DNA of 26,772 nucleotides, taken from positions 1 through 26,772 of the IMG/VR virus record IMGVR_UViG_3300044641_002523; one strand, 5' to 3'. Below, piece after piece: positions 20,760 through 26,074 of this stretch (position 1 is its first letter; every line of letters begins with the position of its first letter). The position numbers and the translations under genes were made by a program. This DNA comes from a virus. The notes beneath the pieces are model-generated. The model was not told where the DNA came from. It was given only the letters and a program-made list of their open reading frames with translations, and did not search any database.

Positions 20760-21515
20760 TCAGAGTTTCATAATGTAGGCCAAGGCGTAATACGGGGGAA
20801 CGGTGGGAACCGCAGAACTCGCAGCCGTATTGTTGTGGATGTGTGACCCAGAGCCACCAAAGGAACTGTTAGACGCTGTAATACCAGTCACACGAGTGTT
20901 GATGCTGATACCCGTGTAGTTCGTTCCAGTGACGGTATTCGTCTTGCCCTGCTCTGCACCAACAGCAGCCACGCTACCGTTGATCACAGTGCCACCATTA
21001 GACCTGTCGTAGCTGTGAGCGTGACCGGGGTCATTGATGGTGTGGTTATGCCCCGGATCAGTCACGGTAATCGTGTGGGCATGAGCAGGCACCTGAGCTT
21101 CTGTCAGGGTTACCGCTTGGTTGGTCAATGTGATGGTCGGAGTGTTACTAGCAGCGCCACCAGTAGAACCCACGGAATACGAGGTGCCAGCACAGACCAC
21201 AAACTTATTCGTTAGGTCAGGAGTCGTAATGTTACCTGTGCCATCTGAGCGAGCAACGGTCTGACCGTTACACAAGGCCCACCCTGTGGGAACACTAGAC
21301 GTAGAGCCTGACCACAGCAGGATGGAACCTGTAGGAACTAGAGCGCCATTCAGTTGGGCCTGAGTAGCCGTTACAGCGCCAGTGAGGTTCGGAAAGGTGG
21401 ACTTAAGGACAGACTTGAGTAACCGGATGTGGTCGTCAGCTTGCCCCACAGGATCAGAGCCGGGAGGGTTACTTGAGTTCAAGTCAGAGATGAATGAAGC
21501 GGATTCGATAGCCAA
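20760..21515 (-). CDS. Tail-collar domain fibre protein
   Basis: A 251-residue protein with a TTG start; GGGAG lies eight bases upstream. Residues 1-60: a short N-terminal helix region with SNPPGSDPVGQADDHIRLLK and then GAVTATQAQLNGAL, a common attachment motif of short fibres. Residues about 60-115: the phage tail-collar domain (PTGSILLWSGSTSSVPTGWA, LCNGQTVARSDGTGNITTPD, LTNKFVVCAG). After that come His pairs at regular spacing (PAHAHTITVTDPGHNHTIND, PGHAHSY and SGSHIHNN), as in metal-binding fibre tips of the T4 gp12 type. It ends with VPPYYALAYIMKL, the usual end of these proteins. It is the first gene of the leftward late block and follows the divergent control region. Confidence 0.9.
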   Translation of the reverse strand: MAIESASFISDLNSSNPPGSDPVGQADDHIRLLKSVLKSTFPNLTGAVTATQAQLNGALVPTGSILLWSGSTSSVPTGWALCNGQTVARSDGTGNITTPDLTNKFVVCAGTSYSVGSTGGAASNTPTITLTNQAVTLTEAQVPAHAHTITVTDPGHNHTINDPGHAHSYDRSNGGTVINGSVAAVGAEQGKTNTVTGTNYTGISINTRVTGITASNSSFGGSGSHIHNNTAASSAVPTVPPYYALAYIMKL

Positions 21516-21541
21516 ACGTGGGTCTCCCTAGGGTATCGTTA

Positions 21542-21556
21542 GGTCCACGCAGGACC
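21542..21556 (-). promoter_or_regulatory. Short hairpin in the leader of the collar-fibre gene
   Basis: GGTCC-ACGCA-GGACC, a five-base-pair stem with a five-base loop, 27 bases upstream of the TTG start of the collar fibre gene. Confidence 0.35.
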
Positions 21557-21622
21557 ATCAAAAGAAACACAAAAGAATAGAGTTCACAGAAGAATTACTG
21601 CGACGAGTAAAATAGAATGTAT

Positions 21623-21691
21623 GTCCTTGGGTAAACCAAGGTAAAACTTAAGACATAGGGACGTAAGTAATACCTTGGTTGACCCAAGGAG
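21623..21691. repeat. Two near-identical CCTTGG-N5-CCAAGG dyads in inverted orientation
   Basis: Site 1 is CCTTGGGTAAACCAAGG (21625-21641); site 2 is CCTTGGTTGACCCAAGG (21673-21689). Each has perfect six-base arms and a five-base centre. Site 2 is the reverse complement of site 1 with a single difference, and the match extends to 19 of 20 bases. Their centres are 48 bases apart. They look like operators for a dimeric regulator of the divergent region. Confidence 0.7.
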
Positions 21692-21826
21692 TACCTTAGT
21701 TACACAATCAGTTTATAACGTCGTCGCTAACCAATGTAGAACCATGGTTGACGTTGGTAGACCTGTGTTACGTAGGTGGATATACGTTGGTCACCTGTGT
21801 TTACATTAGATGACCTAGGTTGCCCC
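21692..21826. repeat. Degenerate ACC(T/A)NGGTTG(A)C series and a 33-base direct repeat
   Basis: Further weaker copies of the dyad half follow: TACCTTAGTTACAC (21692), ACCATGGTTGACG (21741) and GACCTAGGTTGCCCC (21812). ACGTTGGT.(G)ACCTGTGTT occurs at 21751 and 21784, period 33, with about 29 of 33 positions alignable when one base is gapped. The array suggests a multi-site protein-binding region. Confidence 0.5.
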
Positions 21827-22081
21827 CTGTAGTCCCCCACGGTTACCTGACAGCAGGAACTGCGTCCCTGATGACTCCCCTAAGTCGGTCAGGCGTAGAA
21901 CGGTGGTGGCTTTTGGTTACAGAGGGTGACGAGAGTTACGGTAAGTTGGCGATAAGTATGCGGGACAACATTGGCCCCTGTGCCTAGGTGTAAAACACGC
22001 AATTTGAGCGTGGTTCTCTCTATAGTACTACGCAGATCGGAAAACAGCATGTAACTAATTGAAACTAAGGTCACTCAGCGT

Positions 22082-22093
22082 AACTACGTAGTT
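22082..22093. repeat. Perfect palindrome AACTACGTAGTT
   Basis: A 12-base perfect palindrome in gene-free DNA. Possible protein site; no function seen. Confidence 0.4.
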
Positions 22094-22255
22094 TTCTGAA
22101 ATATACCATTTGTTTACATTCCGTAATCAGCCCGTCCACCCTCTGAAACGTGGGAAACGGTGGTGAGACGAACAACAACCTAGCCGCTTCAGGCAATTTT
22201 TTGAAATCAGATTTTCAATGGTTTAGCAGGGGGAGACAAGCGGTAGGGACCCGCT

Positions 22256-22325
22256 GTCGTCGCATGTTCTCGCCTGTCTATCGTAACCCACTGATAACAG
22301 GACGACGCAAAGGATAAACTATCCT
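22256..22325. repeat. Stem-loop cluster
   Basis: GTCGTC (22256) can pair with GACGAC (22301), enclosing CCTGT-c-TATC (22273-22282) paired with GATA-ACAGG (22293-22301) around a ten-base loop; the two stems share one base. Immediately after, AGGATA-AAC-TATCCT (22311-22325) is a perfect hairpin. It may be a structured RNA on the rightward transcript or a DNA cruciform site. Confidence 0.45.
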
Positions 22326-22331
22326 ATCACC

Positions 22332-22386
22332 TATGTGTCGCATGTATCGCTTGTGTAGCATGTGGTTGCGTTGTGTTTCGTGTGGG
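22332..22386 (+). repeat. Three imperfect 18-20-base direct repeats (TGTGT(A/C)GCATGT-type)
   Basis: TGTGTCGCATGTATCGCT (22334), TGTGTAGCATGTGGTTGCGT (22352) and TGTGTTTCGTGTGGG (22372) follow each other at spacings of 18 and 20 bases. The second contains the 12-mer TGTAGCATGTGG that recurs inverted at 23807. Iteron-like in layout. Confidence 0.55.
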
Positions 22387-22394
22387 ATACATTA

Positions 22395-22432
22395 GACATT
22401 TGCAAGACATTTGCTGGACATTGCGCGACATT
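22395..22432 (+). repeat. Four helically phased GACATT repeats
   Basis: GACATT starts at 22395, 22406, 22417 and 22427, that is every 11, 11 and 10 bases, in contexts GACATTTGC, GACATTTGC, GACATTGCG and GACATTCGG. One copy per helical turn on the same DNA face is a layout used by cooperative DNA-binding proteins. Confidence 0.65.
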
Positions 22433-22454
22433 CGGTCGCATAATTCGCTACTGT

Positions 22455-22477
22455 ATACCATGTGGTATTGTAATACC
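22455..22477. repeat. Two overlapping perfect dyads sharing a GGTAT arm
   Basis: ATACCA-TG-TGGTAT (22455-22468) overlaps GGTATT-GT-AATACC (22464-22477). The arms alternate ATACC, GGTAT, ATACC every nine bases, followed by TGTATAAAT. This is an operator-like layout upstream of the rightward genes. GTATACCA recurs at 23802. Confidence 0.55.
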
Positions 22478-22637
22478 TGTATAAATGACGATTTTTGTAT
22501 ACATTTAAGTCTTTGATGTAAAGCATTGATTTCAATAGGTTTTCTTTGATCGATTTGTCCCACGTTTCACCCTGGCTAAACCCACGTAACCCATTGATTT
22601 TACACATGTATAAAATAGCGCTTTTCTTATCTATCCC

Positions 22638-22648
22638 ATGTGCTACAT
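22638..22648. promoter_or_regulatory. Upstream dyad in front of the first rightward gene
   Basis: ATGTGCTACAT has ATGT/ACAT arms; read on the other strand it is ATGTAGCACAT, a short form of the TGTAGCAT dyads at 23058 and 24712. It lies 40 bases before the start at 22688. Confidence 0.45.
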
Positions 22649-22687
22649 TGGCTTCATTGGAAATCACACGAACTCAGGGGATACACA

Positions 22688-22915
22688 ATGAACACTAAAA
22701 GCCTCAATCGCTCAATCGGCCTCGCAATGTCCGCTTTGCAGCAAGCCCGCGCTTATCAACATGGCGCGACTAATCAAACCATTATGTTTCTAAAGCGCGC
22801 TATTCGTTGGCTCAATAAAGCCCGCGCTCGTTTGAAGCAAGGCCATTCGCTTGCGGCGCATATCTATGCGTCGGGCGCACATGAACAAATCAAGCTTGCC
22901 ATCGCCACCCGCTAA
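22688..22915 (+). CDS. 75-residue basic helical protein, first rightward gene
   Basis: Starts at ATG 22688 (MNTKSLNRSIGLAMSALQQA), preceded by AGGGGA at eight bases; the longer upstream start has no such site. The protein is basic and helical with Ala, Arg, Gln and Lys (MFLKRAIRWLNKARARLKQG), and no transmembrane segment. Function not recognised; small basic early proteins of phages often bind host proteins or nucleic acids, which remains speculation here. It is followed after 37 bases by a tiny membrane protein. Confidence 0.75.
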   Translation: MNTKSLNRSIGLAMSALQQARAYQHGATNQTIMFLKRAIRWLNKARARLKQGHSLAAHIYASGAHEQIKLAIATR

Positions 22916-25696: not shown

Positions 25697-26074
25697 ATGA
25701 CCTATCAAAAAGAGCAACTCACTGACGGTGACACCATCAAAATGGAACGACTGCTCAACTGTATTCAGTCGTTTCGCGATGTTCGGGCTGACATGCCAGC
25801 AAGTTCAATGGCGGCTTTTCTTCTGGTGGCGCTGAAACCCGGCATCACCCCTTCTGAAGCTGCCCAATACCTTGGCCCCACGTGGAACGGGAGCATGGCC
25901 TCGCGCCTCCTTCTGGAACTAGGGCCTCAAAAGCGGAACGGGGAAGATGGTCTACAGTTGATCGACCAGACCATCGACCGTTCTGACCTTCGCGGGAAGC
26001 ACTACACCTTGACCATTCAGGGCCGTAAGCTTCTCAATAGGCTCCTTACGCGCATGGGAGTTTCCAATGGCTGA
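25697..26074 (+). CDS. MarR-like winged-helix DNA-binding protein
   Basis: 125 residues. Residues about 15-50 are a helix pair (MERLLNCIQSFRDVRADMPA, then MAAFLLVALKPGITPSEAAQ). GITPSEAAQYLGPTWNGSMA followed by SRLLLELG has the helix-turn-helix pattern with a recognition helix. The wing region is DGLQLIDQTIDRSDLRGKHY, followed by TLTIQGRKLLNRLL, which closely matches the end of MarR-type winged helices (D-R-R.....LT..G..L). AAGAGG lies eight bases upstream of the ATG. Its end overlaps the integrase start by eight bases. Likely a regulator of the integrase unit, or a recombination-direction factor; the DNA target is unknown. Confidence 0.75.
   Translation: MTYQKEQLTDGDTIKMERLLNCIQSFRDVRADMPASSMAAFLLVALKPGITPSEAAQYLGPTWNGSMASRLLLELGPQKRNGEDGLQLIDQTIDRSDLRGKHYTLTIQGRKLLNRLLTRMGVSNG

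Follow-up and report, generated by a model that had tools for sequence, protein, structure and literature searches.

Gene content and position of the gap

The window, i.e., the whole stretch of 26,772 nucleotides (26.8 kb) analyzed here, corresponds to positions 1-26,772 of the IMG/VR record IMGVR_UViG_3300044641_002523. Oriented leftward are the genes for a tail collar protein (PF07484), a particle protein (PHROG 3287) and an ejection protein, along with those for the terminase, the SU10-type portal (PF23899) and the SU10-type capsid (PF17236). The rightward genes include small early genes followed by those for a DUF7227 protein, a regulator (PHROG 9665; 25697-26074) and a tyrosine integrase, the last of which runs off the contig. 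In longer relatives, the next genes encode a T7-like RNA polymerase (RNAP), an endonuclease, a T7-type primase-helicase and PolA; the window contig stops before the RNAP gene. The gap between the two gene sets is bounded by the following genes:

20760-21515, minus strand: tail collar gene, opening the leftward late operon (PF07484 and PHROG tail families)
22688-22915, plus strand: first early gene, 75 aa (homologues in relatives)

The gene-free gap reported in the earlier note spans 21516-22687, exactly between the start of the tail collar gene (21515, minus strand) and the first rightward ATG (22688), and no convincing gene lies within it. A family search with the 75-aa early protein gave no match, and a nucleotide similarity search of cultured phages returned nothing relevant. 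A gap of 1.0-1.4 kb is kept at the same place in about ten related contigs, its sequence being mostly divergent among the relatives, with several conserved blocks. Three parts can be distinguished, namely, a left part with the late promoter and its leader (21516-22045), a middle part with a composite element (approximately 22168-22430) and a right part extending to 22687.

The earlier note had drawn attention to the gap because of its density of repeats, listed as six kinds, next to an AT-rich segment. The latter is borne out by the composition, with 32% GC at 22431-22560 and 28% in the lowest 100 bp, compared to 50% for the window. Among the repeats, the inverted repeat at 21624-21690 is far above chance (score of 18 versus no more than 10 in any of 60 dinucleotide shuffles) and an 11-bp tandem array, placed by TRF at 22394-22422, is slightly so (best tandem score in the gap of 12 versus a shuffle maximum of 11); the remainder is mixed with chance repeats. 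The number of palindromes is ordinary (4 versus 3.7 in shuffles for the left half and 8 versus 5.1 for the right half), several of the two-copy repeats resemble what chance alone would produce, and the supposedly phased repeats in the left half are irregularly spaced. Judging from the sequences compared, the real parts of the gap are apparent from conservation across relatives, not from repeat density. Two of these parts had been overlooked, namely, the leader of the phage-RNAP late promoter in the left half, to which the left-hand dyads of the earlier note belong, and the conserved middle element.

Probable late promoter and its leader

The left part contains the following features:

22013-22045, minus strand: late promoter of the phage RNAP, CGATCTGCGTAGTACTATA followed by GAGAGA, predicted +1 at 22020 (aligned homologues recur upstream and/or downstream of RNAP genes of relatives)
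21516-22020, minus strand: leader (5' UTR) of the late transcript, 505 nt, between the predicted start and the tail gene
21996-22012, minus strand: predicted hairpin near the 5' end of the late transcript, CACGC-TCAAATT-GCGTG (changed arms in relatives)
21624-21690, no strand assigned: 27-nt inverted repeat, 21624-21650 and 21664-21690, forming a hairpin in the late leader (89% complementary)

Self-comparison of the genomes revealed a sequence of 18-28 bp that occurs in the gap, directed toward the tail gene, and again immediately ahead of the RNAP gene, directed toward RNAP. The sequence is phage specific, with each phage carrying its own version. In 13 of 15 RNAP-bearing relatives, a clear match in the functional orientation is present at the flank before and/or after RNAP, whereas none was found in the other 2 (G022 and G023). 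The copies of a pair are identical at 17-18 of 18 bases in the 13 genomes, except in G007, for which the 20-base copy came from the self-comparison of genomes rather than from the 15-genome scan. By comparison, opposite-strand controls reached 17/18 once (PG011) and otherwise at most 16, and shuffles did not exceed 16. In G001, approximately 20 nt, including a Shine-Dalgarno sequence, would separate the predicted start from the RNAP start codon. The RNAP of the relatives is of the single-subunit type, with PF00940 recognized in G001 and RNAP homologues in 15 relatives. Assignment of the gap sequence as the predicted late promoter of a T7-like phage RNAP, with a start at approximately 22020, is well supported; in the window, where one copy is visible and the contig ends before RNAP, it rests on the alignment with relatives. 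In Pseudomonas phage LUZ100, a phage-specific promoter allowing positive feedback has been experimentally mapped at the same place, before the RNAP gene (PMC10134795). The promoter sets represent naturally diversified RNAP-promoter pairs.

The paired sequences could alternatively be inverted recombination sites at which the integrase flips the early segment, as they form inverted copies flanking the early genes and the integrase in 4 genomes (G001, G002, G003 and G005). However, a further copy is present after RNAP in G011, G012 and G020, each oriented with the downstream genes, and all copies in G020 are direct. Furthermore, as would be the case for a promoter, the identity stops near TATAG; a ribosome-binding site follows, and then RNAP. 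We rejected this reading on account of the third copies and the all-direct arrangement and regard it as very unlikely.

Two further observations concern the surroundings of these sequences. A conserved stretch with the dyad AACTACGTAGTT is located at 22060-22100 in the window, just upstream of the late promoter. Phage promoters also lie directly after RNAP in several relatives (L271/L272 and other RNAP flanks), in tandem in G012.

The 505-nt leader folds better than its shuffles (z of -3.9), a tendency shared by the leaders of 8 of 9 relatives. Good folding was also predicted for the opposite strand, so that the strand cannot be read from the folding. The 5' hairpin is predicted, with changed arm sequences, in 7 phages of the clade (the window, G001, G002, G003, G004, G005 and G007). 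An Rfam search yielded no family at the gathering score and only 2 sub-threshold microRNA matches, both to the leader hairpin.

A conserved composite element

The middle part of the gap comprises the following features, bordered on the right by the AT-rich stretch:

22168-22206, plus strand: conserved block GACGAACAACAACCTAGCCGCTTCAGGCAATTTTTTGAAA, left end of the composite element (gap-free in 11 relatives)
22228-22252, plus strand: conserved G-rich block with GGGACCC (alignments of relatives)
22284-22296, minus strand: IHF-like site TATCAGTGGGTTA beside the dyad, one mismatch (read from the sequence)
22309-22327, no strand assigned: phage-specific dyad AAAGGATAAACTATCCTAT (arms covary; offset from TTTTTGAAA)
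22394-22432, plus strand: 4 GACATT-type direct repeats, 10-11 bp apart (TRF score of 44; conserved in most relatives)
22431-22560, no strand assigned: AT-rich stretch, 32% GC (composition)

Approximately 60 phage contigs share these parts with the same order and spacing over about 250 bp, i.e., the AACAAC block, CTTTA, TTTTTGAAA, the G-rich block, GGGACC, the IHF-like site, the dyad and the GACATT repeats. A relaxed pattern scan of viral contigs retrieved more than 100 stretches, nearly all of them upstream of a tail-collar homologue. The dyad lies about 111-122 bases from TTTTTGAAA in most relatives, and its arms covary, with at least 6 of 7 pairs formed in 42% of rows compared to 9% in control stretches. 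In some relatives, the place of the IHF-like site at 22284-22296 is occupied by an exact IHF consensus. Parts of the element are visible in prophages of Caballeronia, Asaia, Polymorphobacter and Microvirga; a profile search of Sphingomonas prophages did not find it, nor was it found in Pasto and RHEph01, 2 T7-headed temperate phages with a related replication set and another head type. Collectively, the near-fixed geometry, the covarying dyad, the repeats and the neighboring IHF sites suggest a nucleoprotein assembly site.

Two other explanations for the conservation were discarded. A short conserved peptide encoded by the TTTTTGAAA block is disfavored by a reading of the alignment, in that the frame is open in the window, interrupted in some relatives and devoid of silent changes in shared codons. 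A structured RNA spanning the element was also rejected, the consensus structure taking in only the dyad and one small hairpin, with folding little better than in shuffles.

A DNA-packaging site (pac or genome end), at which the terminase and IHF would act on the repeats and the symmetric dyad would be recognized or cut, somewhat like at lambda cos, is a possible though unlikely function. In either genome arrangement (see below), the element lies at the upstream edge of the structural module, and the 2 phages with another head type in which it was not found fit such a role. Moreover, in a set of approximately 105 family loci (viral contigs L140-L254), the ends of the contigs are concentrated at 177-257 bases rightward of TTTTTGAAA; they have no single cut point in common and may simply mark the switch from conserved to variable sequence. 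Such a cluster could reflect assemblies that break at a variable region, or else hint at genome ends. A dyad, an IHF site and short repeats are likewise combined in lambda cos and lambda attP; unlike in lambda cos, however, the element is far from the terminase genes (approximately 11 kb), and the large terminase subunit is not of the lambda GpA family, matching PHROG 2 and, weakly, Terminase_6N.

IHF sites, operator-like palindromes and a candidate early promoter

The following features were recognized in the right part and, in one case, within the composite element:

22356-22367, plus strand: operator-like palindrome TAGCATGTGGTT (TASCATGTGGTA pattern scan)
22456-22467, no strand assigned: operator-like palindrome TACCATGTGGTA (TASCATGTGGTA pattern scan)
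22519-22531, minus strand: exact IHF consensus AATCAATGCTTTA (consensus match)
22587-22599, minus strand: exact IHF consensus AATCAATGGGTTA (aligned in most close relatives)
22622-22649, plus strand: candidate early sigma70 promoter, TTTTCT-16-TACATT, with an operator-like site at 22634-22645 in the spacer (by eye from the alignment)

The exact IHF consensus WATCAANNNNTTR is enriched and conserved in the gaps. Among the close relatives of the window, 18 exact sites are present in 9.6 kb of gaps versus 10 in 205 kb elsewhere in the same genomes, corresponding to an approximately 38-fold higher density (p = 4e-18, a value that overstates the independence of the sites, the rows being related). 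Based on these matches, IHF is predicted to bind at the gap sites.

The proposal of the earlier note that dyads in the region serve as operators is plausible for one class of sites. The TASCATGTGGTA pattern with up to 2 mismatches occurs 9 times versus 3.2 times expected, a number reached in none of 100 shuffles, and 7 of the 9 matches, at 6 positions, fall between 22356 and 23962, with one overlapping the candidate early promoter. The palindromes are thus putative operators, predicted from their sequence. The candidate promoter itself is tentative; a sigma70 consensus scan of the region gave matches not above chance, and the site at 22622-22649 is absent from its list.

Prophages and genome arrangements

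Genome searches revealed integrated prophages of this phage group. In 4 of them (G010, G011, G013 and G014), attL and attR are direct repeats of 24-49 bp at tRNA-Leu, located between int and RNAP, and the gap upstream of the tail gene is therefore internal to the prophage. Integration at tRNA-Leu has also been reported for vTRX32-1-like phages (PMC8631192). These junctions bear on the possibility that the dyad, the IHF sites and the repeats constitute the attP of the phage integrase. The core-like dyad with phage-specific arms, the arm-like repeats, the IHF sites and the presence of an integrase gene are all in keeping with an attP, but the prophage-host junctions do not fall at the dyad. Unlike in lambda, attP is excluded at this place by the junctions in the 4 prophages, and we consider the attP reading extremely improbable.

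The element is found upstream of the tail gene in one orientation, with the replication module to its right being either divergent, as in the window (type A), or co-directional (type B). The opposite orientations of the replication module (int, RNAP, primase-helicase and PolA) with respect to the structural module are seen across clades (L194, L170, L165, L207, L217 and prophages G010-G014). In the particle-protein tree, at least 3 orientation changes are needed, with one breakpoint at the tail-upstream element, which thus marks the point where the replication module changed orientation several times.

Possible functions of the region

We propose, with a probability of roughly 70%, that 21516-22687 serves an uncultured temperate podovirus, which combines an SU10-type head with a T7-type replication set, as a non-coding region controlling transcription in both directions, with a late promoter directed leftward, a probable early promoter directed rightward and the conserved element between them. 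The single-subunit phage RNAP would start at approximately 22020 and read leftward through the tail and head genes behind the 505-nt structured leader. The host RNA polymerase would probably start near 22650, under control of a phage repressor, and transcribe rightward through the early genes and on into those for the regulator and the integrase; RNAP is expected to follow past the end of the contig. Comparison of relatives supports two of these components, namely, the late promoter and the element's conservation. The half with the late promoter can be assigned to a known kind with good support; the middle element is, as far as we could find, undescribed. Literature searches surfaced the LUZ100 and vTRX32-1 papers and no description of the element, so that the statement of the earlier note that no described phage region has this exact combination holds within the searches made.

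For the composite element, replication origin is our leading, if tentative, guess. IHF would bend the DNA, a phage protein would bind the repeats and the dyad, and the AT-rich stretch at 22431-22560 would open. The origin suggested in the earlier note thus retains its ingredients, the iteron-like direct repeats, IHF sites and adjoining AT-rich DNA being present and partly conserved. Its expected signature in GC skew, a check proposed in that note, did not materialize; the skew tracks the direction of transcription in 13 near-complete relatives and, in both type A and type B genomes, shows no shift beyond gene direction, which is a weak test for T7-like replication. A search for DnaA boxes found no cluster (4 in the window versus 2 expected, one of them in the gap), and no initiator was identified, including beside the element. 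Iteron-type origins similarly unite short direct repeats and IHF sites with an AT-rich stretch in one region, but the repeats here are shorter and neither an initiator gene alongside nor a DnaA-box cluster was found. We know of no iteron-type origin with a conserved dyad and AACAAC block. Furthermore, the element stays beside the structural module when the replication module flips, and it was not found in the 2 T7-headed temperate phages searched, despite their related replication set. The flip behavior, the skew and the latter negative result weaken a simple origin reading, with packaging and regulation remaining serious rivals. In T7, the phi1.1 promoters and the primary origin sit directly after the RNAP gene, and the site directly after RNAP may be a competing place for the origin in the present phages.

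Regulation would take the form of a switch, in which a loop formed by IHF and a phage repressor sets early versus late transcription. Located approximately 130-600 bp from the late promoter in the genomes inspected, the element is adjoined by operator-like and IHF sites, in keeping with such a switch. However, a search of 7 genomes for another close copy of the dyad found none, in contrast to typical operators, and in type B genomes the element does not adjoin early genes. We rate this role as possible though unlikely, on a par with packaging. Finally, the 250-bp element may, with somewhat less confidence than we attach to the origin, belong to an undescribed class of phage cis-acting sites, perhaps a joint origin/packaging or module-hinge site kept beside the structural module while the replication module repeatedly flips. 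In any case, it offers a concrete target, and a role in replication, packaging or transcription switching is testable in existing lysogens.

Relation to known phages

LUZ100, a T7-like phage with temperate features, also carries a regulator and an integrase before RNAP (PMC10134795). It differs in having T7-type synteny, as opposed to the SU10-type structural module transcribed away from the early genes here, and the composite element has not been reported for it. The temperate Paadamvirus phages (RHEph01, vTRX32-1; PMC8631192) and Rhizobium phage Pasto share the T7-like RNAP and replication genes, with the integrase upstream of RNAP, but have T7-type head and tail genes, all co-directional. 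Conversely, SU10 and Salmonella 7-11 podoviruses have the same capsid and portal families (PF17236 and PF23899), with 22-37% identity in capsid and portal, but are cultured lytic phages with much larger genomes. The phage group described here is abundant, mostly uncultured and temperate, and its prophages reside in bacteria that can be cultured, Sphingomonas and Microvirga among them. Among its early rightward genes, the one for the DUF7227 protein (PF23872; 23096-23800 in the window) is matched by at least 599 stretches of viral contigs.
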